Part shown: positions 15,787 through 44,197 of the stretch, in pieces
How positions within the stretch are numbered: the stretch's first letter is position 1
How the letters are laid out: every line of letters starts with the position of its first letter
IMG/VR virus record: IMGVR_UViG_3300035663_000017
Location: 1 to 59,206 of that record
DNA length: 59,206 nucleotides
Source of the DNA: a virus
Direction: 5' to 3' (one strand)
Position numbers and translations under genes: made by a program
The notes under the pieces: model-generated
Seen by the model: only the letters and a program-made list of their open reading frames with translations
The model's database searches: none
What the model was told of the DNA's origin: nothing

Positions 15787-18700
15787 ATGTCAGGAATAAT
15801 TAGAACAAAGATTTCAGGAAAACAGATTATCGATGGAAGCGTAACTCGCTCAAATCTCGATACATCTATCGTTTCTGATATCGACACACTCAAGAGTCAT
15901 GATACTCAACAAATTGGTCAAATCGCTCAGCTAGAAACTGACGTTGCGACCGAGACAACAGCTAGAATTGCCGGTGATACCGCTCTTGGACTACGTATTG
16001 ATGACGTAGAGAGCAATTTGGCTGATGAAGTAACCGCAAGGACATCTGCTGATACTTCACTAAACAATGCTATCGCAGCCGAAGAGAGTCGCGCACTTCT
16101 TGCTGAACAAGGACTTGCAGATGACATTCTTTCAGAGCAAGAGCGTGCGATTGCAATAGAAACAGATCTTCAAGCTCAAATTGATGCAGAAGAAATCGCT
16201 CGCGCTGCGGCTGTTAGTGCTGTTGCTGGCGATCTTAGTACTGAAGTAACTCGCGCCACTTCTGCTGAACAAGCATTAGATGCACGATTAGATGTTCTTG
16301 AGCAAGACCCAACAACAAAGGGCTATGTAGATCAAAAGGTTGCAGACCTAGTTAACTCAGCCCCTGCGGTACTTGATACATTAAAAGAACTTGCTGATGC
16401 TATTGGCGAAGATCCTAATTTCGCAACTACTATCGCAAATCAAGTAGGAGTAGTAGCTGCTGATCTAGCAACCGAAACAACAGCTCGTATAGCTGGAGAT
16501 TCAAATCTTCAGTCTCAAATTGATGCTTTATCGCTCGGTTCAAGTACCGACATAAGTGCATTGCAAACATCTTTAAATCAAGAAATCCTTGATCGTCAAT
16601 CTGGCGATACTGCTCTCGGACTTCGAATTGATGGAGTAGAAGGTGATTTAGCTGATGAAGTAACTGCAAGAACATCCGCTATAGCTGCTGAAACCTCAGC
16701 TCGTACCTCAGCTGATACCGCTCTCGGACTTCGAATTGACGGAGTAGAAGGTGATTTAGCTGATGAAGTAACTGCAAGAACATCTGCTGACAGCGCTCTT
16801 AGCAGTCGAATTAGCGTCCTTGAATTATACAAAGATGCACAGGTAGTCTATGTAGCTAAAAATGGAAATGACTCCACTGGAAATGGTGGCGAACATGCTC
16901 CATACTTAACACTTCAAGCTGCTATGGCTTCTATTACTGATTCATCTCCTTCAAAGAGATACGTCATTAGAGTAAAGGCTGGTAACTATACCGAATCTGG
17001 CATTTTAAATCTTAAGCCAAATGTGTATGTTGTTGGTGATTCTATATATTCTGTTAGAATTACTGCTACCTCATTTGCTCTTGATTCAACATTCAACGCA
17101 AATTCTAGCTTTGACAACAGATCAGGATTTTCGAGTTGTACGCTATTAAGTGCATGTGACTTTAACTGGCAAACCGTATCATCTGCTGCTGGTAAATTGT
17201 ATTTTACCGAAGTTCAATTCGGTTCTACTGTTACCATGTATGGGCATAATAATGCAATCGCACAAGCACAATTTCTCGGTTGTATATTTTTTGGTGCCTT
17301 TACTGTTAGTGGGATTAACGTAGGTGTTCATAGAAATAACATACACTACGGCAATATCACACTTAATCAGCATCCTAATGGTGGTATGGTTACCAATCTT
17401 ACTGCTGATGGTGGAGTTTGTACTGGTACAGTTACACTAAATGCAACTACAAATGACTTTAATAGAAGATGCTCCGTGTTTGCTCGTTCATTCTACATGG
17501 AATATCTAACTGTTAACGGTCCAAGTGCATACTGCGACCTTACTGATAGTAGCGTTCCAAGAGACATTGCACGTGTAACAAAGTCAAATGGTGGGAATAT
17601 TGTTTATATTAACTCATTAACACCAATTGATACTAATACACGTAATCAAGGAGATGTTGGAAAGCAATATCTGTATAACTTTAACTACGTGAACGCTTCT
17701 ACGGGAAGTGATTTGTACGTCATTTCAATGGGTACGTCATATTCCGCAGATAACTCAGGTAAAAACATCTTTATCAAAGCTGACTCAAATGGATTAGCTC
17801 CTAACGTAAACGGTGGTGATATTAATATTAACACCTCAGAAGTTAGTGGAACTGGTGTTCGCGGAGAAATTAAATTTGACGGTCGACAAGTTAACGTCAG
17901 CAGCAAGAAAATTGTAAATCTTGCTAATGGTGTTGATGCAAACGATGCAGTAAACGTATCACAACTTAATTCTTCTATAGCTGCCGAAACATCAGCTCGT
18001 ACCTCAGCTGATACCGCTCTTGGTCTCAGAATTGATGGAGTTGAGGGTGATTTAGCTGATGAAGTAACTGCAAGAACATCTGCTGATACAAATCTTCAGT
18101 CGCAAATTGATGCTTTATCACTCAGCTCAAGTACCGATATAAGTGCATTGGAAGCAGCTTTAGAGCAAGAAGTTCTTGATCGTCAATCTGGCGATGCAGC
18201 TACGCTTTCAAGTGCTAATACTTATACCGATGGTAAAGTAGCTGACCTTGTAAATTCTGCACCTGCTGTACTTGATACCCTCAAGGAATTAGCTGATGCA
18301 CTCGGACAAGATCCAAACTTTGCTACCACTGTTTCAAATCAGATTGGTGTTGTAGCTGCTGATCTAGCTTCGGAAATTGCTCGCGCTCTAGCAGCAGAGT
18401 CTGAGATTGCTGGCGATCTTGCTGATGAGGTGATTGCAAGAAGTGCTGCTATAACCGCTGAAGCAACAGCTCGTACCTCAGCCGATACAGCTCTTGGACT
18501 ACGCATTGACGGAGTTGAGAGTGATTTAGCTGATGAAGTGACTGCAAGAACCTCAGCTGATACAGCTCTTGGACTACGCATTGACGGAGTTGAGAGTGAT
18601 TTAGCTGATGAAGTGACTGCAAGAAGTGCTGCTATAACCGCTGAAGCAACAGCTCGTACCTCAGCCGATACAGCTCTTGGACTACGCATTGACGGAGTTG

Positions 18701-19440
18701 AGAGTGATTTAGCTGATGAAGTGACTGCAAGAAGTGCTGCTGATTCTGCACTTGATCTTAGACTGGATGCTCTTGAAAGCAGCGCTTTCGTTACCAGAGA
18801 AGTTCCTTCCGGACTTATTGATGGAGTCAACAAAGTATTTACTTTGGCGAACACTCCAAATCCAGGCTCGGAGCAGGTATTCCTCAACGGTGTGTTGCAA
18901 GAAGCTGGAGTGAGTGGTGATTACACCATTTCTGGAAGTACCATTACTTTCGGAGAAGCACCAACCGTTCCGTTCAGCATCTTCGTTAACTACATAACCG
19001 GAGACCTAGTAGTAGGTAGCGCTGGCGGAAGTGGAAGTGGAAGCGTTCAGCCGTTCCAATGGACGACAACTGAGCAGTTATATCCTTTTGAAGTTGCCGA
19101 TGATGGAAGTCCATTATATGCAATAAGAATTGATATACCATCTCTTCCGAATAACGGCTTTGCCTCATACAACTTGACACCTCTCGCACCGTTCCTTGCG
19201 GATAAAACAAACAATCTGCATGAATACTTACACAGGTACGAGTTTCACTGGAAGGGATTTAGCACAGTCTACGGGCAATCCATTGTGAGAGAAGGCGCTC
19301 AAGCTGGTGTTGTGAATGCTTCTATAGAGTGGGATGGAGTAAGCAGCTACAGCCAAGTAGTAGTTGGTACTAGTGGTGGTGGCAATTGGCATAGCGACCT
19401 CTCTGGTACTTTCAGAGTATTATATAAGAAAACAATATAA
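15787..19440 (+). CDS. long tail fibre with repeat shaft and beta-helix domain
   Basis: 1217 aa. Residues 1 to about 345 are a repeated, probably trimeric coiled-coil shaft with many copies of LADEVTARTSAD and ALGLRIDGVE. Residues about 350-700 start VYVAKNGNDSTGNGGEHAPY and read like a right-handed parallel beta-helix (pectin-lyase-like) domain. A second repeat shaft follows, then a module PSGLIDGVNKVFTL and a C-terminal domain starting FQWTTTEQLYPFE, both shared with the preceding gene. SD AAGGA lies just before ATG. Two terminators follow it. The likely role is host-surface binding. Confidence 0.85.
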   Translation: MSGIIRTKISGKQIIDGSVTRSNLDTSIVSDIDTLKSHDTQQIGQIAQLETDVATETTARIAGDTALGLRIDDVESNLADEVTARTSADTSLNNAIAAEESRALLAEQGLADDILSEQERAIAIETDLQAQIDAEEIARAAAVSAVAGDLSTEVTRATSAEQALDARLDVLEQDPTTKGYVDQKVADLVNSAPAVLDTLKELADAIGEDPNFATTIANQVGVVAADLATETTARIAGDSNLQSQIDALSLGSSTDISALQTSLNQEILDRQSGDTALGLRIDGVEGDLADEVTARTSAIAAETSARTSADTALGLRIDGVEGDLADEVTARTSADSALSSRISVLELYKDAQVVYVAKNGNDSTGNGGEHAPYLTLQAAMASITDSSPSKRYVIRVKAGNYTESGILNLKPNVYVVGDSIYSVRITATSFALDSTFNANSSFDNRSGFSSCTLLSACDFNWQTVSSAAGKLYFTEVQFGSTVTMYGHNNAIAQAQFLGCIFFGAFTVSGINVGVHRNNIHYGNITLNQHPNGGMVTNLTADGGVCTGTVTLNATTNDFNRRCSVFARSFYMEYLTVNGPSAYCDLTDSSVPRDIARVTKSNGGNIVYINSLTPIDTNTRNQGDVGKQYLYNFNYVNASTGSDLYVISMGTSYSADNSGKNIFIKADSNGLAPNVNGGDININTSEVSGTGVRGEIKFDGRQVNVSSKKIVNLANGVDANDAVNVSQLNSSIAAETSARTSADTALGLRIDGVEGDLADEVTARTSADTNLQSQIDALSLSSSTDISALEAALEQEVLDRQSGDAATLSSANTYTDGKVADLVNSAPAVLDTLKELADALGQDPNFATTVSNQIGVVAADLASEIARALAAESEIAGDLADEVIARSAAITAEATARTSADTALGLRIDGVESDLADEVTARTSADTALGLRIDGVESDLADEVTARSAAITAEATARTSADTALGLRIDGVESDLADEVTARSAADSALDLRLDALESSAFVTREVPSGLIDGVNKVFTLANTPNPGSEQVFLNGVLQEAGVSGDYTISGSTITFGEAPTVPFSIFVNYITGDLVVGSAGGSGSGSVQPFQWTTTEQLYPFEVADDGSPLYAIRIDIPSLPNNGFASYNLTPLAPFLADKTNNLHEYLHRYEFHWKGFSTVYGQSIVREGAQAGVVNASIEWDGVSSYSQVVVGTSGGGNWHSDLSGTFRVLYKKTI
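18475..18732 (+). repeat. 75-bp direct repeats in the fibre gene
   Basis: Three near-identical 75-bp units occur at 18475-18549, 18550-18624 and 18658-18732, inside a field of weaker copies that includes 16600-16790 and 17990-18090. Each unit codes for 25 shaft residues. Near identity at DNA level suggests recent expansion or recombination. Confidence 0.85.
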
Positions 19441-36010: not shown

Positions 36011-39000
36011 TTAACTAATTTTTGTCCAAAGAACTCCATCAGATTCAAATTGCTCAACTCCGTTAAGTTTTTGCATAAAATTTATTATTTGATACGTCTC
36101 AGCTTTCTTTTTCAAACCTTCTTCACTCACTATGGAGTTATTTAATAATAATTTGAATTCTCGAATTGTATGAAGCCATCCAAATAGCAATAAAGCCATC
36201 ACCAAATCATCATTATTTCCCTCCTCTGCTGCATAAACGGCACCCTGACGGGAAAAGCTTTCTAATTCGCTAATTGTCTCCTTATCATTGATGATAAGAT
36301 CATCATTCTCAATTAATCGCTTAAGCTCAGTACAACCTATCAGTTTTACAGGTAAGGTGGTTTTACCTCCGAATCTACCCTTATTATTTCTTCCAAGAAC
36401 AATTTTAAATTGTTCCTTTCCTTTAATTTTCTCTAAACTGATAAGATTTTTGTAGTCGGCTGAGAATAATGCTTCCGAAACTACAGGACCAGTTGATGCA
36501 TCTTCGATGAAGACCATCGCATCATTGTACATTTCGGCAACTTGTTTGATGAGCAAAGCTAATTCATGAGGTCTTATCATGTTGTCGTGATATGCCGCAA
36601 CTTGTCCATATTTCTTCTCTGAAACGTCAATTACTTGTATGGATGAATAGTCTAATCCAACTCCTTCTCCACAGTCACAAATCATCACATATTGCCTATC
36701 TTCTTTTGGCTTTTGGTAAATGTTAATTGGTATTGTAGTTTCACAATTTTCAGGTACCAAAGAGCGAAGCTTATCTGGATGAATAAGCGTTTGCGTTGAA
36801 CCGATGAAGTCGCAGTTATGAGAAATTACATCTTCGCTGTAAAATAGGTGACCGCCCGCAACATTTAATGGGTCAAAAAGAGAGATGCCTTCCTTAATAA
36901 TTTCCTTTTTTAAAATCTTTTTTGAGCCGCCCCTGCTTTGCAGGAGGTTACCTTTTTTAAGTTTGTTTGCTTCTTTTAATCCCTTTGGCGTTTCAAATCT
37001 ATGATTTGTTGAGCATCGAATTATAGTGCCATCGTCAAAAGTAAGACGAACATATTCGTCTCTGTGAATCTTTTGAATGCCATCGAAAGGCAAAAACCCA
37101 GAAGGGGTTTCTATAAGATATCTATGAGAGGAAATTAGACTCGCGCCGATTAGCTCATACAACTCCTCAATCGTTATTTGTTTAATTTCTCCTGTTGGAG
37201 TTTTGATACGGACTCTACTCTCTCCGGCCAAACACAAATGTTCCTGTCGGAACATATCACGACCGAGTTCTTTGATTTGAGTCTGTACCCATTTTTCATT
37301 ATCTCTAGCTGGATCGGCTCTATAGTCAGCTTTTATTAAATGCCAATTATTTCCAGCTTCGGCCTCTTTGATGATTTTGTAGAAATGATTTTTCCCTTGT
37401 GGGGTTGAGGTCACAAAAAGTTTGGTTTCAGTACCGGCTGCAATAGTAGGTATAATAGATGCTTTAAATTTATCGGCAACCGTTTTCTTAACCGCTGCAA
37501 ATTCATCCAAGAATACAATGGAAAAGGATCGACCTCGACCTGCGTTAATAGTAGTAGCGGATACCTGTACCGATGAACCATTTTCTAATTTGATAGATTT
37601 GATGTTCCATTTGGTATAGCCATGCTTTAACCAATGTGGAACATTTTCATAGCCTAATTTTAATCGGTCATGAATTTCTATTGCAGTCTCCTGCTTGTCA
37701 GCCAAAACGCCTACTGAAACGTTTGGGTGGAAGTTAATGAACCAACCGATAAATGCAGCAGTGACGGATGTGTTATGGGTAGGTATTAAAGAATTGCCAG
37801 CTAGGAAGAGATGGCTTTCATTGTCCACTTTAATACATTTTACAGGAACAGTTTCAACTTTCTCAATTGATTGAATATAATGCCTCTGACTATCAAGCGA
37901 AATTAGCGCAGTCTGAAGTCGCTCAGCTTTTCTTTTTAGCCTAACAACCGGAAGAGTAGTTAAGCACCTGACTTTATAATGACGTCTTGGCTCTTCAAAG
38001 TAATATGATTTTTCTTTATCCTTAGAATGTACTTTTGTTACAATTTTTGCCGTTATCTTCGCCTTAATTCCGAGAGACGCCATCAATGATTGCACCTGAT
38101 TTGCAAGATCCTCTGACTTTGTATAAAATTCAGCACTGCCTTTTTTGGTAATTGAACCATCCGTGTCGAGTAATCCTTGAAGCAAAGCCAAGCGATCATC
38201 AAATGATGATAACAAGTATTCAGCAGGAATGTGTTTGTTTTTTAATAAATTTAATTGTTTGAGCTTTCCATAAAGACCTTCAACTTTAACCAATTTCATA
38301 TGAGAATGGTCGCTCTTATAGGACTTTTGTGTGAATACTTCTGATGATACAATTTTCTCGTATTGTTCTACATCTTCTCTAAGACCGATGATATCTCCTG
38401 AATGCGAATACCCATCACCAATCCACAACCCCAAAAGATATGGGTTAATCGGAAGTTCCTTTTTCTCCATTTCCAAAGGTTTCGTAACGTCAATAAATAC
38501 GCTTTGCCCTTTGGCTCTTTGTTTATTCAATATTGGTATAATTTCTTCAGTTGTTAAAGTCTTATATTTAACAATCTTTCTAGTTTTTTTGATATCTGAT
38601 CCTAATTTGTAGGCTCCCGGAATCCTTTCTTGTGTGATAGTACCAATTGTCCAAAGATGTTCGGCGTCCGCTGTAATGACTTCGCCGTTATCAAACGTGA
38701 CATTATAGCACGTTCGATCTGTATAAACAGGAGACTCGTAAAGAACTTTTGTTTCCTTTCCATCTGGTCCATAGATCGTGTCACCTATGTGTATATCCTT
38801 CAGAAACTTAAATCCGGTAGGTGTTAGGATTTTTGTTGATAAACTAAGACTCTTTCCCACCTGACGACTGCAAAGCATTGCAATCATCCGATGTTTTTGA
38901 TACGCCGTGATTGCTTCTTTTTGAAATGGTCTAAGTGGAAATAATATTAGACCTCTATCTGGGTGAGTTATCTTCCAGTATTTTTCAATAAAATATATTG

Positions 39001-39124
39001 GATCGTGAGCACACTTAATCCACTCTTCTTTTTGCTCATCAGTATAAGGTGGAATATGACCAGCTTTCCTTAATCCTGGTCCTTCCCAATCGACAATTTC
39101 CTCAGATTCTTTTTTATTGGCCAT
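36011..39124 (-). CDS. 17: terminase large subunit gp17 interrupted by two inteins
   Basis: 1037 aa precursor of the DNA packaging motor. The exteins (537 aa after removal) carry the P-loop SRQVGK/TSVTAA split by intein 1, Walker B SIVFLDEFAA with the catalytic Glu, FVTSTPQGKN, the QEHL/CDFIGSTQTLI junction split by intein 2, and the C-terminal nuclease Asp motifs (CDCGEGVGLDYS, VFIEDAS, NNDDLVMALLL). The ATP-binding loop and the linker to the nuclease are both broken unless splicing occurs. T4 gp17 is 610 aa. Confidence 0.95.
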   Translation of the reverse strand: MANKKESEEIVDWEGPGLRKAGHIPPYTDEQKEEWIKCAHDPIYFIEKYWKITHPDRGLILFPLRPFQKEAITAYQKHRMIAMLCSRQVGKSLSLSTKILTPTGFKFLKDIHIGDTIYGPDGKETKVLYESPVYTDRTCYNVTFDNGEVITADAEHLWTIGTITQERIPGAYKLGSDIKKTRKIVKYKTLTTEEIIPILNKQRAKGQSVFIDVTKPLEMEKKELPINPYLLGLWIGDGYSHSGDIIGLREDVEQYEKIVSSEVFTQKSYKSDHSHMKLVKVEGLYGKLKQLNLLKNKHIPAEYLLSSFDDRLALLQGLLDTDGSITKKGSAEFYTKSEDLANQVQSLMASLGIKAKITAKIVTKVHSKDKEKSYYFEEPRRHYKVRCLTTLPVVRLKRKAERLQTALISLDSQRHYIQSIEKVETVPVKCIKVDNESHLFLAGNSLIPTHNTSVTAAFIGWFINFHPNVSVGVLADKQETAIEIHDRLKLGYENVPHWLKHGYTKWNIKSIKLENGSSVQVSATTINAGRGRSFSIVFLDEFAAVKKTVADKFKASIIPTIAAGTETKLFVTSTPQGKNHFYKIIKEAEAGNNWHLIKADYRADPARDNEKWVQTQIKELGRDMFRQEHLCLAGESRVRIKTPTGEIKQITIEELYELIGASLISSHRYLIETPSGFLPFDGIQKIHRDEYVRLTFDDGTIIRCSTNHRFETPKGLKEANKLKKGNLLQSRGGSKKILKKEIIKEGISLFDPLNVAGGHLFYSEDVISHNCDFIGSTQTLIHPDKLRSLVPENCETTIPINIYQKPKEDRQYVMICDCGEGVGLDYSSIQVIDVSEKKYGQVAAYHDNMIRPHELALLIKQVAEMYNDAMVFIEDASTGPVVSEALFSADYKNLISLEKIKGKEQFKIVLGRNNKGRFGGKTTLPVKLIGCTELKRLIENDDLIINDKETISELESFSRQGAVYAAEEGNNDDLVMALLLFGWLHTIREFKLLLNNSIVSEEGLKKKAETYQIINFMQKLNGVEQFESDGVLWTKIS
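36815..37234 (-). other. intein 2 in terminase: mini-intein without endonuclease
   Basis: 140 aa from Cys1 (CLAGESRVRIKTPTG) to the terminal His-Asn (DVISHN), followed by Cys+1. Block B is seen as CSTNHRFET and block F as LFDPLNVAGGHLFY. No LAGLIDADG or HNH motif is present, so it is a splicing-only mini-intein. The joined extein reads FRQEHLCDFIGS, a normal terminase sequence. Confidence 0.9.
37772..38851 (-). other. intein 1 in terminase: LAGLIDADG homing intein
   Basis: 360 aa, starting with Ser1 (SLSLSTKILTPTG) and ending LIPTHN with Thr+1. Block B is EVITADAEHLW; two dodecapeptides YLLGLWIGDG and LLQGLLDTDG mark a LAGLIDADG homing endonuclease. It lies within the Walker A loop of the terminase ATPase; the joined extein reads SRQVGKTSVTAA. 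Ser1 in place of Cys1 and Thr+1 are allowed nucleophiles. Confidence 0.92.
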
Positions 39125-39577: not shown

Positions 39578-39913
39578 CTACTTTTTTTGTTTAGCCAAAA
39601 GTTCTTTTCTTCGCTTCATTCTCTCCTGCTTAAATCTTTCGTCAGGATTATTACTCGCAGCAACTGCTTGAGCGGAAGTAGTACTGGATGAGACAAAAGG
39701 CTCCGGTCCTATAGATTTCAATTTTGAATATGCCGCATTAACGTGCGACATGATTTCAGCATTACCACCAGCATCGGGATGACTTTTCTTTGCAGCCGAA
39801 TGGTAAGCGGATTTAAGCTCATCCTGAGAGAAGCTTATCGGGAGACCCAAAATTGTTCGCGCTTCATCGACGGATAAGTCTTTTTCTATGAGATATTCTT
39901 CAAAAGTAAGCAT
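39578..39913 (-). CDS. J-domain (DnaJ-like) phage protein
   Basis: 111 aa. ILGLPISFSQDELKSAYHSA, then KKSHPDAGGNAEIMSHVNAA is a J domain with the essential HPD motif. Such proteins recruit and stimulate host DnaK. The N-terminal MLTFEEYLIEKDLS resembles short packaging-type starts in other phage proteins. The start follows AATAAATA by 6 nt with no Shine-Dalgarno. It sits at the head of the terminase operon, which suggests a role in head assembly or packaging (inferred). Confidence 0.88.
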   Translation of the reverse strand: MLTFEEYLIEKDLSVDEARTILGLPISFSQDELKSAYHSAAKKSHPDAGGNAEIMSHVNAAYSKLKSIGPEPFVSSSTTSAQAVAASNNPDERFKQERMKRRKELLAKQKK

Positions 39914-39960: not shown

Positions 39961-39988
39961 ATAAAGTATTGTTTGAAGTCTTCCGATT
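39961..39988 (+). repeat. 28-bp direct repeat, left copy
   Basis: ATAAAGTATTGTTTGAAGTC followed by TTCCGATT. It matches 42050-42077 except for one base. A shorter copy of its core, TTGTTTGAAGTCT, occurs at 40047 as part of the recombinase promoter. The two long copies bracket the recombinase, nucleotidyltransferase and small RNA region. Confidence 0.8.
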
Positions 39989-40049
39989 CTTTATATCATA
40001 AGGCACAAACATAAAAACATTGCCGTTATTTAGAACTTAAATTAATTGT

Positions 40050-40078
40050 TTGAAGTCTGCCCACATTTTTGATATACT
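40050..40078 (+). promoter_or_regulatory. sigma70-type promoter of the recombinase gene
   Basis: TTGAAG (40050-40055), 17 bp, TATACT (40073-40078), followed by GGAGGTGAT before the ATG at 40114. A good host-type early promoter. The -35 region overlaps the repeated TTGTTTGAAGTC core. Confidence 0.7.
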
Positions 40079-40113
40079 TAAAATATGGGATTAGCGAGTT
40101 TGTTGGAGGTGAT

Positions 40114-40686
40114 ATGAAAGGTTGCAGACCACTTACTGAAGATGAAAAGGTTCAAGTATTAAATGCAATTGACGGTCGGCACCAATTGAGAGACCGACTT
40201 CTTGTCGTTTTAGGCATTTATGCTGGTTTTAGAATTTCTGAAATACTCTCACTAAAGGTGAAGGATGTTTTCCAAAAAGGCACGATACCAGCTCACGTTA
40301 CTGTGCAGCGACGGAACCTTAAAGGTAAGCGCGAGGGTCGCTCCGTTGTGCTTCACCAAGTAGTCAAAGACGCTATTGTAGAATATATTCTCAGCAATCC
40401 GCATATTACTCCAGAATCGCCACTATTTTTAAATCAAAGTGGAACTAAGGCAATTAGTCGCCAGCAAGCTTGGAATATCCTTGAGTATGCATATGCAGCA
40501 TGTGGCCTTACCGGAACTCTTGGGTGTCATAGTTTGCGGAAAACATTCGCAGCCTCGGTTTATGAGCGATCTGGCCACTGCCTATTGAAGACAAAACGAG
40601 CACTCGGTCACACCGATATTCGTACTACAGAAAAATATCTCTCATTCGCTGAGAGTGAAGTAGAAAACCTTATTACCGGAGCATAG
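40114..40686 (+). CDS. tyrosine recombinase, catalytic domain only
   Basis: 190 aa. It shows the family residues in order: Arg in YAGFRISEIL (about residue 39), a beta-hairpin Lys region, CHSLRKT (HxxR, about 138), LGH and EKYLS with the Tyr nucleophile (about 172). The N-terminal core-binding (SAM-like) domain found in XerC and integrases is missing. ATG 40114 has a strong GGAGGTG Shine-Dalgarno; the open frame to 40069 has none. It could act on the flanking 28-bp repeats. Confidence 0.88.
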   Translation: MKGCRPLTEDEKVQVLNAIDGRHQLRDRLLVVLGIYAGFRISEILSLKVKDVFQKGTIPAHVTVQRRNLKGKREGRSVVLHQVVKDAIVEYILSNPHITPESPLFLNQSGTKAISRQQAWNILEYAYAACGLTGTLGCHSLRKTFAASVYERSGHCLLKTKRALGHTDIRTTEKYLSFAESEVENLITGA

Positions 40687-40705
40687 TAAGAAACTAAATA
40701 AAGAG

Positions 40706-41578
40706 GTGAAAACCTTTTTAGAATATCTACAAGAATCAATAATTGACCCGTATCATGAGCGGCTCAGTCCTTCTATTTTCGAATCGACAAATCCTCCAAA
40801 ATTGAAGAGTTTGGTTAGGGCACAGATACAAAGAGGTGTAGCCAATTTAGAATCCCATTCAGGGATTAAAGTCATAGATTACAGATTAATAGGAAGTATA
40901 CTCACACATCGATATACTTCCGATTCTGATATAGATATTAATGTTCTAATTGAAGGGAATTTCAATAATGCAGTAAAGGTGGCAACCCATTTAAGCGGTA
41001 AGCCAATACCAGGAACGCAGCATGTAGTCAACTTTCACGTTTTAAATCAACGACTCATCTGGAATGCAGCCAACAAAGACGCTGATGGTATATTTAATGT
41101 AGTAGAAAACAAGTTTGAAAAGATTCCAAAAAATAAACCATTCGATGTTACAGTTTACTGGAAGGATTTTACACGAGTTGCCAGCACGATAGACAGCCTT
41201 TCGGAAAAGCTAAAAGAAATAGTACTTGATTACGATTCTTTACGTCTTGCTGATCCAAATGCTCTAAAGCACATTCGCACCATGGCACTGCATAAAATTC
41301 GAGAAATGGAGCAAACAGCTGCATCTTTAGTGGACATCTATAAAATAATCAAAACTCAACGTGATAGCTTATTTGAAAAACAGTTAACACAAAAGGATAT
41401 CATACGCTATGGCGAGAAGAATCGCATGCCAGCAAATGTTATTTATAAACTTTTAGAAAAATATCACTATTTAAAGCTCCTACATACCATCTCAGATATC
41501 ATAGGAAATGATAATTCATTAAGCCCATCTGAATTAAGAGAACTTCAACAACTTTTCAATCCAACAGTTCCTAGATAA
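40706..41578 (+). CDS. nucleotidyltransferase-fold phage protein
   Basis: 290 aa, GTG start. The segment YRLIGSILTHRYTSDSDIDI followed by NVLIEG is the GS...DxD motif of the polymerase-beta-like nucleotidyltransferase fold. A helical C-terminal half follows. Related proteins occur in other T4-like phages without a known substrate. The N-terminal KTFLEYLQES resembles the capsid-targeting starts of T4 internal proteins (inference). It follows the recombinase by 19 nt. Confidence 0.75.
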   Translation: MKTFLEYLQESIIDPYHERLSPSIFESTNPPKLKSLVRAQIQRGVANLESHSGIKVIDYRLIGSILTHRYTSDSDIDINVLIEGNFNNAVKVATHLSGKPIPGTQHVVNFHVLNQRLIWNAANKDADGIFNVVENKFEKIPKNKPFDVTVYWKDFTRVASTIDSLSEKLKEIVLDYDSLRLADPNALKHIRTMALHKIREMEQTAASLVDIYKIIKTQRDSLFEKQLTQKDIIRYGEKNRMPANVIYKLLEKYHYLKLLHTISDIIGNDNSLSPSELRELQQLFNPTVPR

Positions 41579-41620
41579 TCTCAGCAAATTTCACAAATAA
41601 AAAAAAGATATTTTTGCTTA

Positions 41621-41657
41621 GGTAATGTTTTAACGAACCCACAATCTGCCATATTAT
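41621..41657 (+). promoter_or_regulatory. GGTAAT element with TATTAT
   Basis: GGTAATGTTTTAACG at 41621 with TATTAT at 41652-41657, two bases further than in the standard copies. It would start transcription right at the structured RNA of 41662. Confidence 0.45.
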
Positions 41658-41661
41658 TTTT

Positions 41662-41737
41662 AGCACCGCTTCTTTGTGAAGCATAACCTCCTCCTCCTCA
41701 TGATAACTCTCCTGTCGCAAAGGGCGGTGCTTTTTTT
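41662..41737 (+). ncRNA. candidate small RNA ending in a terminator, with CCTCC repeats
   Basis: AGCACCGC (41662-41669) pairs with GCGGTGCT (41724-41731), followed by a T run: a closed domain with an intrinsic terminator-like end. Inside are a small hairpin GCTTC/GAAGC and an unpaired CCTCCTCCTCCTC run, complementary to Shine-Dalgarno sequences. A GGTAAT-type promoter lies just upstream. The next gene's Shine-Dalgarno AGGAG lies 7 nt after the T run starts. It may be a regulator or an attenuator. Confidence 0.5.
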
Positions 41738-41748
41738 AGGAGAATTGT

Positions 41749-41910
41749 ATGAAAAGTCCTAGACAGCCTTACGTGGATTTAATTCTTGGTGCTTTAAAAG
41801 ATTTAGGTTCATTAGCGTTATTAACGTTTTTGTTTATGATTGCCTGGCTCGCCATTGCAAGTGCATTGAATGCTTTTTTAAATATGAATATAAGATTAAT
41901 CTTTTTTTAA
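41749..41910 (+). CDS. 53-aa membrane protein
   Basis: Begins MKSPRQPYVDLILGALKDLG and continues with one long hydrophobic segment (LALLTFLFMIAWLAIASALN) before a short tail. AGGAGA lies 5 nt before the ATG. One membrane span is expected. Its function is unknown; small lysis or superinfection proteins have this shape. Confidence 0.65.
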   Translation: MKSPRQPYVDLILGALKDLGSLALLTFLFMIAWLAIASALNAFLNMNIRLIFF

Positions 41911-41916
41911 ACAAAA

Positions 41917-42010
41917 AAACCAACCACTCCTAAACCCTGACACCGTTCTACTTTAAGCTTAGGTTCGTGACAGGAAACGGTAAAAACATCCCCTAGCGGT
42001 TGGTGTAATC
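41917..42010 (+). ncRNA. structured intergenic RNA candidate
   Basis: Between the membrane protein and RadC gene CCAACC (near 41921) can pair with GGTTGG (near 41997), ACCGTT with AACGGT inside, and CCTGACAC partly with GTGACAGG, giving nested and competing helices. A long-range fold of about 90 nt is plausible. It could be a leader element of the RadC gene or an independent RNA. Confidence 0.35.
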
Positions 42011-42049
42011 TATTTAGAGTAATGAGATACGTATTATTTTAGCTGAAAT

Positions 42050-42077
42050 ATAAAGTATTGTTTGAAGTCCTCCGATT
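42050..42077 (+). repeat. 28-bp direct repeat, right copy
   Basis: ATAAAGTATTGTTTGAAGTC followed by CTCCGATT, one base different from 39961-39988. It lies 36 nt before the RadC gene, so it may double as a promoter (TTGAAG is present but no clear -10 at 17 bp). Confidence 0.8.
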
Positions 42078-42112
42078 GTTTTCATTAGAAGTGGCTAATT
42101 ACGGAGAATTTC

Positions 42113-42550
42113 ATGGAAACTAGATTTATTCGAGAGGTTTCAGCTCGATATTCCAATACTCGAAGGCAAAAATTTGCTATTTCTGATGGTAGTGATGTTG
42201 TACGTTTCATAAGAACAAAAGTTATAAAGGATAACACTAAAGAGCATTTTATTATACTATCCTTAGATTCAGCTAGAAATGTCGCTTCATATTCAGTCGT
42301 GAGCGTAGGTACAACTAACTTTTCAATAGTTCACCCACGAGAAGTTTTTCAAATGGCCATACTTTCAGGAGCTATAGGTATTATCGTTGCTCATAATCAC
42401 CCATCAGGTAGAGCCAAACCATCATATGCTGACCGGCAGGTTACGAAACGTCTAAAACAAGCAGGTGAAATCTTAGGAATTAGAGTGCTTGATCATGTTA
42501 TCGTAACTGAAGATGATTATCATTCATTTCAAGAGGAAGGTGAATTCTAA
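42113..42550 (+). CDS. radC: RadC-like JAB/MPN domain protein
   Basis: 145 aa. The JAMM zinc motif HNHPSGRAKPSYAD lies near residues 94-107, after FIILSLDSARNV and VHPREVFQMAIL, the usual RadC C-terminal domain order. The N-terminal helix-hairpin-helix of bacterial RadC is missing. These proteins are often carried by mobile elements; the enzyme function is unsettled. Confidence 0.9.
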   Translation: METRFIREVSARYSNTRRQKFAISDGSDVVRFIRTKVIKDNTKEHFIILSLDSARNVASYSVVSVGTTNFSIVHPREVFQMAILSGAIGIIVAHNHPSGRAKPSYADRQVTKRLKQAGEILGIRVLDHVIVTEDDYHSFQEEGEF

Positions 42551-42706: not shown

Positions 42707-43522
42707 TTATTCCTCCCCAATTAAATTTTTGATATCAATGCCTCTTTTCCTGTCTTCTATAATAATCTCGCAAGCGTCTAAGTTGCCACAGAGTCCGGTC
42801 ATATCACCCCAAATTCCACTAACATCCCCAGAGAGTTCGGTCACATCCCCATAAATTTTATTTGCATATCCACAAAGTCCGGTCAAATCTCCTGTAATCT
42901 GACTTACATATCCCCGAATCCCGCTCACATATCCCCGAATCCCGCTCACATCTCCACAAAGTCCAGTTACATCTCCTCTAATCTTACTCACATCTCCATA
43001 AATTCCGGTTACATTTCCACAAATTCCGCTTACATAACCACAAAGTCCGGTAACATTTCCACAAAGTTTGCTTACATCTCCATAAATTCCAGTGACATAT
43101 CCTCTAATATTGCTTATACATCCAGAGAGTTTACTCACGTCTCCGCAAAGTCCCGTCACATATCCCCAAATCTTACTCACATCCCCACACAGTCCGGTTA
43201 CCTCCCCTCTAATGTCGCTTACTTTTCCGCGAATTCCGGTGACATCCCCACAAAGTCCGGTTACATCTCCCCTAATCTCGCTTGCATTTCCCCTAACCTT
43301 GCTTACCTCTCCATAAAGTCCACTCACATCTCCTCTAAGATCGCCGACATAACCATAAAGTCCGGTAACATCTCCCATAACTTGGCTTACATAACCAAAA
43401 ATTCCGCTTACATCTCCCGTAATTTTACTTGCATCCCCGAAAATATTACTTTTATTTGTTACTAAAATGCTTACATTTCCAATCAATGTTTTTGAGTTTG
43501 ATATTTTCAATTTACGTTTCAT
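42707..43522 (-). CDS. heptapeptide-repeat protein, large paralogue
   Basis: 271 aa, almost entirely about 33 tandem repeats of seven residues, G-[DYN]-V-[ST]-[GK]-[IL]-x (for example GDVSGIRGDVTGLCGDV). Gly, Val and Ile/Leu recur at fixed places, which suggests a solenoid or beta-helix. It ends in a cap DACEIIIEDRKRGIDIKNLI followed by GEE, shared with the two genes upstream. Function unknown; adhesin, virion surface and decoy roles are possible. Confidence 0.8.
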   Translation of the reverse strand: MKRKLKISNSKTLIGNVSILVTNKSNIFGDASKITGDVSGIFGYVSQVMGDVTGLYGYVGDLRGDVSGLYGEVSKVRGNASEIRGDVTGLCGDVTGIRGKVSDIRGEVTGLCGDVSKIWGYVTGLCGDVSKLSGCISNIRGYVTGIYGDVSKLCGNVTGLCGYVSGICGNVTGIYGDVSKIRGDVTGLCGDVSGIRGYVSGIRGYVSQITGDLTGLCGYANKIYGDVTELSGDVSGIWGDMTGLCGNLDACEIIIEDRKRGIDIKNLIGEE

Positions 43523-43939
43523 TTACTCCTCCCCAATTAAATCTTTAATATAGATACCAGCTTCTCTTTCTTTCTTGGTAATCTCGCAAGTATCTAAATT
43601 GCCTTGAACCCCACTCGCATCTCCATAGATTCCGCTCACATCGCCACTAATTCTGCTCACATCTCCCCTAAGTCCGCTCACATCTCCCCTAAGTCTGCTT
43701 AAATCTCCACTAATCGCGCTCACATCTCCACTAAGTCCGCTCACATCTCCACTAATCGCGCTTACATATCCCCTAAGTCTGCTCACATCTCCACTAAGTC
43801 CGCTCACATATCCACTAATCGCGCTTACATCTCCACTAATCGCGCTTACATATCCCCTAAGTCTGCTTAAATCTCCAGTTAACTTGCTTGTATCGCCTAT
43901 CAATCTTTTGAGTTTCATTGTTGTTAATTTAGGTTTCAT
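43523..43939 (-). CDS. heptapeptide-repeat protein, middle paralogue
   Basis: 138 aa. A basic start (MKPKLTTMKLKRL) leads into about 14 repeats of GDVSGLS/GDVSRLR type, then the shared cap TCEITKKEREAGIYIKDLI and GEE. The last codons GGG GAG GAG followed by TAAATG serve as the Shine-Dalgarno and start of the next gene, so the three are translationally coupled. Confidence 0.8.
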   Translation of the reverse strand: MKPKLTTMKLKRLIGDTSKLTGDLSRLRGYVSAISGDVSAISGYVSGLSGDVSRLRGYVSAISGDVSGLSGDVSAISGDLSRLRGDVSGLRGDVSRISGDVSGIYGDASGVQGNLDTCEITKKEREAGIYIKDLIGEE

Positions 43940-44197
43940 TTACTCCTCCCCAATTAAATCTCTAATATCAACACCATTAGCTCTTTCTTCTTCGGTAATC
44001 TCGCACTTGTCTAAATCTCCCGATAGGCCAGTTACATACCCACTTATGCCAGTAACATCTCCACGTATCCCACTTATATCACCGTGTAGATCACTTACCC
44101 TACCGCGTATATTACATCCATTACCTTTCAGTTTAGTTAAATCGCCCGTTAAATTGTCAGCATTTATTAACTTAGTTTTTTTTAATTTTCGTTTCAT
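43940..44197 (-). CDS. heptapeptide-repeat protein, small paralogue
   Basis: 85 aa, first of the three tandem genes. It has about six repeats and the cap KCEITEEERANGVDIRDLI plus GEE. Repeat number rises from this gene to the last (about 6, 14, 33). This is the shortest complete example of start, repeats and cap. Confidence 0.78.
   Translation of the reverse strand: MKRKLKKTKLINADNLTGDLTKLKGNGCNIRGRVSDLHGDISGIRGDVTGISGYVTGLSGDLDKCEITEEERANGVDIRDLIGEE

Follow-up and report, generated by a model that had tools for sequence, protein, structure and literature searches.

Direct repeats around a catalytic-domain-only tyrosine recombinase in a T4-superfamily phage as probable copies of a phage-wide promoter

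Genes and features at the locus

The window, i.e. the whole stretch of 59,206 nt analysed here, is an IMG/VR fragment of a T4-superfamily myovirus and carries genes for terminase, sheath, tail tube, sliding clamp and clamp loader, together with a gp46/47-like nuclease, a late sigma factor and gp32-like and gp59-like proteins. The large terminase subunit (36011-39124) contains two apparent inteins (residues about 93-451 and 632-768) that are absent from the compared relatives. Downstream of it, two 28-bp direct repeats at 39961-39988 and 42050-42077 were identical at 27/28 positions, as originally predicted, and the alignment of both could be stretched to 42 nt at 86% identity. The third core copy that had been placed at the recombinase promoter, TTGTTTGAAGTCT, was located at about 40045-40058. 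As for the genes said to be enclosed, the recombinase and the nucleotidyltransferase were recognized by Pfam profiles and the membrane protein corresponds to a 53-aa hydrophobic ORF. The locus was compared with the relatives L009/L015 (27 kb), L010/L016 (145 kb) and L088 (5 kb, ending inside the nucleotidyltransferase gene); a scan of genome contigs found no relative.

The recombinase gene (40114..40686, + strand, ATG at 40114) encodes a protein of 190 aa that starts with MKGCRPL and consists of the catalytic domain of a tyrosine recombinase (PF00589, E 1.3e-21), with the R/K/HxxR/H/Y residues all present and with Xer/Cre-type matches in Foldseek. Three-sequence alignments gave AlphaFold models of poor quality (pLDDT 49 and 63), and no conclusion rests on them. 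The enzyme shares the PF00589 domain and every catalytic residue with the Xer/FimB-type tyrosine recombinases and PHROG 216 but differs from these in having no core-binding domain, which confirmed the claim that this N-terminal domain is missing. It belongs to a wider phage family starting with MKGCRPL, in which this is the normal state and not a truncation. In 8 viral records a minimal recombinase gene occurs at a distance of 1-9 kb from TerL, and in phages of Bacillus and Sporosarcina the two are direct neighbours. Catalytic-only recombinases, often divergent, were also seen near the terminase in unrelated phages (L107, L110, L096 and viral records G006-G017).

The Polbeta-fold nucleotidyltransferase gene (40706..41578, + strand) encodes 290 aa (PF18765, E 2.4e-5, slightly below the cut-off of this profile) with a conserved GS..SDxD motif, and its profile gave nothing convincing when compared with solved structures. 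A T4-type late promoter-like sequence, ACTAAATA, is located at 40693..40700 (+ strand), 5 nt ahead of the gene, and the corresponding sites in L009 and L010 are TATAAATA and TAATAAATA, the start being 5-8 nt away in all three phages. In the stretch examined around the homologues in other phages (L121-L123), no recombinase was detected. The T4 capsid-targeting sequence comprises the N-terminal 10 residues of a protein, of which residues 4 and 7 are important for targeting and residues 8 and 10 for processing (PMC9026906). The nucleotidyltransferase begins with MKTFLEYLQE, giving aromatic F4 and Y7, hydrophobic L8 and E10, and the same pattern was present in L009 and L010. Given the residues that T4 has at these four positions, the N-terminus resembles the T4 capsid-targeting pattern, and the protein may be packaged and injected. 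The DnaJ-like protein encoded at 39578-39913 has a similar beginning, MLTFEEYLIE.

Further downstream, a terminator-like hairpin with a T-run (41662..41738, hairpin 41662-41731, + strand) had a z of -2.7, and a hairpin stands at the equivalent position in L009 and L010 (-4.1 and -3.5). The hairpin region (41658-41748) displays a C-rich, anti-Shine-Dalgarno-like loop, CCTCCTCCTCCTC, just before the AGGAG of the hydrophobic ORF (41749..41910, + strand), and small membrane ORFs are likewise placed in the relatives. A small RNA candidate had also been listed within the interval, and it probably corresponds either to this + strand hairpin at 41662-41738 or to a minus-strand element of the CyVA-1 class (see below). 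Beyond the right repeat follows a RadC/JAB-domain gene (42113..42550, + strand).

The repeats as probable members of a promoter family

When the window was replaced by 20 first-order Markov versions, 0 pairs of 28-mers with at most one mismatch were obtained, and among the pairs listed for the window all other such pairs lay inside a repetitive gene (15787-19440) that matches tail fibre proteins in PHROG. The bare 13-mer core, with 2 mismatches allowed, was not enriched in the window (6 observed, 3.5 expected), and the significance of the repeats therefore rests on the longer match. When viral contigs were scanned with an 18-mer, five matches were obtained; these had nothing alike beyond the 18-mer, and the motif family did not recur there.

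Further copies, for which a search had been proposed, were found in the phage itself and in its relatives. The genome stretches scanned were the window, 30 kb to the left of it taken from another contig of this phage (99.99% identity over the compared part), and the relatives' contigs. With a position weight matrix (PWM) trained on the relatives' sites only, the window copies being left out, the three window copies ranked 1-3 of all window positions (scores 23.2, 19.5 and 16.1), as compared with maxima averaging 11.5 (largest 19.2) in 30 random sequences. The left 30 kb held three more copies (29.8, 20.7 and 16.1), upstream of unrelated ORFs and with no recombinase nearby. The 145-kb relative holds about 18 motif copies; a 23-bp pattern matched it 12 times and its reversed control 0 times, and the motif combined with a TA...T pattern gave 21 matches, compared with 1 in the control. 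Two copies located 34 kb apart in this relative match each other at 26/28 positions, so that 27/28 between the repeats is ordinary and a recent duplication is not needed to explain it.

The family consensus is about T..WAAG.WWTGTTTGAAGKCKGMCSA, with the core TGTTTGAAG. Since the sites were collected by their -35 core, the conservation of this core is partly by construction, whereas the -10 and the flanks were free of that selection. Similarity to TATAAT at a spacer of 17-18 exceeded that at control positions (p = 6e-6), which is a statistic of the family and not of every copy, as a -10 match of at least 4/6 at this spacer was lacking in about two fifths of the sites in the alignment of 25. The per-spacer count of -10 matches peaked at 17-18 bp, in agreement with the suggestion that TTGAAG is a -35. 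MotA-like middle promoters, with a spacing of about 12 bp, were considered and rejected: some 4/6 matches occurred at 12-14, the peak being at 17-18.

Within the window, copy 1 (39961..40002, + strand, PWM 19.5) includes the left 28-bp repeat and has TTGAAG at 39973-39978 and, after a spacer of 18, a weak -10, CATAAG, at 39997-40002; it has no gene of its own and lies in tandem upstream of copy 2. Copy 2, the predicted recombinase promoter (40038..40078, + strand, core 40045-40057, PWM 23.2), has TTGAAG at 40050-40055 and TATACT at 40073-40078 (spacer 17), followed by a GGAGG ribosome-binding site and the ATG at 40114. Its equivalents are retained in L009, L010 and L088, as ATTGTTTGAAGTC...TACAAT, ACTGTTTGAAGGC...TAGAAT and TTTGTTTGAAGTC...TATAAT. 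Copy 3 (42050..42091, + strand, PWM 16.1) includes the right repeat, with TTGAAG at 42062-42067 and TAGAAG at 42086-42091 (spacer 18), and the RadC-like gene starts 21 nt beyond it.

These findings support the alternative that the original prediction had offered, a shared promoter, as the motif recurs ahead of other genes and a -10 is enriched at the proper spacer. We put at roughly 0.9 the probability that both repeats belong to a sigma70-like promoter family spread over the phage genome, of which copies 1 and 2 would serve the recombinase and copy 3 the RadC-like gene, the enclosed pair of genes being resident. Each site would consist of a long conserved -35 region and a degenerate -10 box 17-18 bp further on, copies 1 and 2 driving the recombinase gene in tandem. 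Given the sigma70-like layout and the T4 family, the sites would be read by host-type RNA polymerase ahead of the switch to the late sigma factor.

Early promoters of the T4 superfamily (T4, RB49, RB43 and Aeh1) have a phage-specific -35 region whose consensus varies by phage (PMC1524935). The family described here is like them in its many oriented copies before ORFs, its long -35 region and its sigma70-like -10, but differs in that the core is TGTTTGAAGKC, conserved to about -22, compared with GTTTAC in T4 (PMC1524935). A search for the A-rich segment of T4-superfamily early promoters at -40 to -44 showed A at just two positions, -44 and -43, in 14-15 of the 24 sites. Since the T4 core GTTTAC was not observed at -35, the likeness of the family to T4 early promoters is one of presumed mode of action and not of consensus, and by this analogy we infer that it acts pre-replicatively.

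The conserved block runs about 8 bp beyond the -35 into the -35/-10 spacer, and because of this an operator overlapping the promoter is conceivable, the long block then being the predicted binding site of a phage or host regulator. The poor -10 of several copies and the tandem arrangement at the recombinase gene, with copies 77 bp apart, point in the same direction. On the other hand, a promoter that needs no extra factor would account for the peak of -10 matches at 17-18 bp and for the spacing to gene starts, and T4-type promoters likewise have long conserved -35/UP regions (PMC1524935). We therefore regard an operator function as possible but doubtful.

The locus in related phages

The gene order sheath, TerL, small gene, DnaJ-like gene and then divergent recombinase and nucleotidyltransferase genes is common to the relatives, and L009/L015 and L010/L016 have about 66-78% DNA identity where aligned. 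In comparisons with L009 and L010, the recombinase reached 76-78% and the nucleotidyltransferase 65-68% protein identity, as compared with 74-94% for pieces of the terminase and 53-59% for two small neighbours (53-55% for the DnaJ-like protein). The recombinase and the nucleotidyltransferase have thus not diverged further than core genes have, which is the behaviour of resident genes. The 28-bp repeats flanking this pair were absent in L009, L010 and L088, where the motif persists solely as the recombinase promoter.

These comparisons bear on the first idea of the original prediction, namely that the repeats are att-like or crossover sites at which the catalytic-only recombinase excises or integrates a 2.1-kb cassette. 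A recombinase with an intact catalytic set does lie between direct repeats, and the RadC, tRNA-Arg and repeat-protein genes beside the right repeat are lineage-specific. Against this, the relatives hold the same genes at the same locus with divergence similar to that of core genes and with no flanking repeats, and an empty site with a single repeat, which had been suggested as a check, was sought in the relatives and every one of them (L009, L010 and L088) was occupied. There is no conserved inverted core, since the palindrome of copy 1, GAAGTCTTC, is broken by the single mismatch of copy 3, and a search for inverted repeats as a target of DNA inversion gave no candidate linked to the recombinase. 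Nothing found connects the recombinase to the repeats. The original prediction had itself named as evidence against a cassette the recurrence of the motif ahead of other genes that have no recombinase near them, and this is what was found; copies of a promoter that precedes many unrelated genes are therefore most probably not the ends of a mobile cassette. We consider the cassette very improbable.

It is beyond the repeats, not between them, that the DNA varies. In the window, the RadC, tRNA-Arg and repeat-protein genes are located between the small membrane ORF and a subtilase gene, whereas these two are only 40-120 bp apart in L009 and L010. The RadC gene is missing at this position in both relatives, so that the stretch containing it, which the repeats do not enclose, is lineage-specific. 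The enclosed genes also differ in promoter class, with the repeat-motif promoter before the recombinase and a late-type one before the nucleotidyltransferase, and the interval 39961-42077 is, by its predicted signals, not one unit. Reading the repeats as promoter copies removes an apparent mobile element and provides a promoter consensus usable for an uncultured T4-like lineage.

A putative small RNA gene beside the third motif copy

Between the membrane ORF and copy 3 lies a putative small RNA gene on the minus strand (41912..42018), with a late promoter-like TCTAAATA at 42018-42011, an RNA helix at 42004-41919 and a T-run at 41918-41912. It matches RF02965 (CyVA-1) at 41999-41924 with 37.2 bits, about 4 bits below the gathering cut-off of 41.4, and is homologous to copies in two other phages that score 42.3 and 46.5 bits, over the cut-off; it is therefore described as CyVA-1-class. 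Two helices covary in the three sequences: two-sided changes occur at 7 pairs, and 96% of cells are paired, versus 36-53% in slid controls. The likeness to CyVA-1 thus comprises a full-length match of 77 positions and covarying helices, the differences being the T4-like phage setting, the T4-type late promoter and the 4 bits by which the window copy falls short. All three copies have a late promoter-like TAAATA at such a distance that transcription is predicted to begin where the outer helix has its 5' end; the copies in the window and in G001 close in poly-U, and that in L114 has ATTT only. Each is divergent from, and 45-90 bp away from, a copy of the promoter motif.

This pairing of an RNA predicted to be made late with a promoter predicted to be pre-replicative, which recurs at different loci and in the window borders a change in gene content (RadC/tRNA), might tentatively be taken as a mobile regulatory unit of a lineage of T4-like phages, a suggestion that we regard as possible but rather unlikely. 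A related idea is that promoter and structured element serve as short homology for module shuffling, copy 3 having arrived with the RadC/tRNA module. Such PeSL cassettes were reportedly described by Arbiol in 2010 and by Comeau in 2014. Compared with the PeSL cassettes (PMC4503421), the likeness is that a promoter and a stem-loop lie side by side at a junction of genes that varies, and the difference that the window stem-loop belongs to a divergent small RNA gene on the minus strand. The PeSL arrangement, in which the upstream gene ends in a terminator stem-loop and an early promoter follows at once, was not found, as the T-run is on the minus strand. In favour of such shuffling, copy 3 adjoins the lineage-specific stretch and the promoter copy and CyVA-1 hairpin occur together at other loci in the two other phages; the hairpin by copy 3, however, has the orientation of a minus-strand gene and is no terminator of the upstream + strand gene, and no breakpoint was seen within the motif. 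On balance a PeSL-like origin appears unlikely.

The CyVA-1 link places a known RNA family in a phage context where its timing can be tested, and together the promoter consensus, the late-promoter layout and the small RNA make expression classes readable from sequence in this lineage. On the minus strand at 42707-44197, three genes in tandem encode G-D-V-S-G-L-like repeats of 7 aa, with a period of 21 nt, and these genes adjoin the subtilase gene, which has a TPTRTP-repeat tail.
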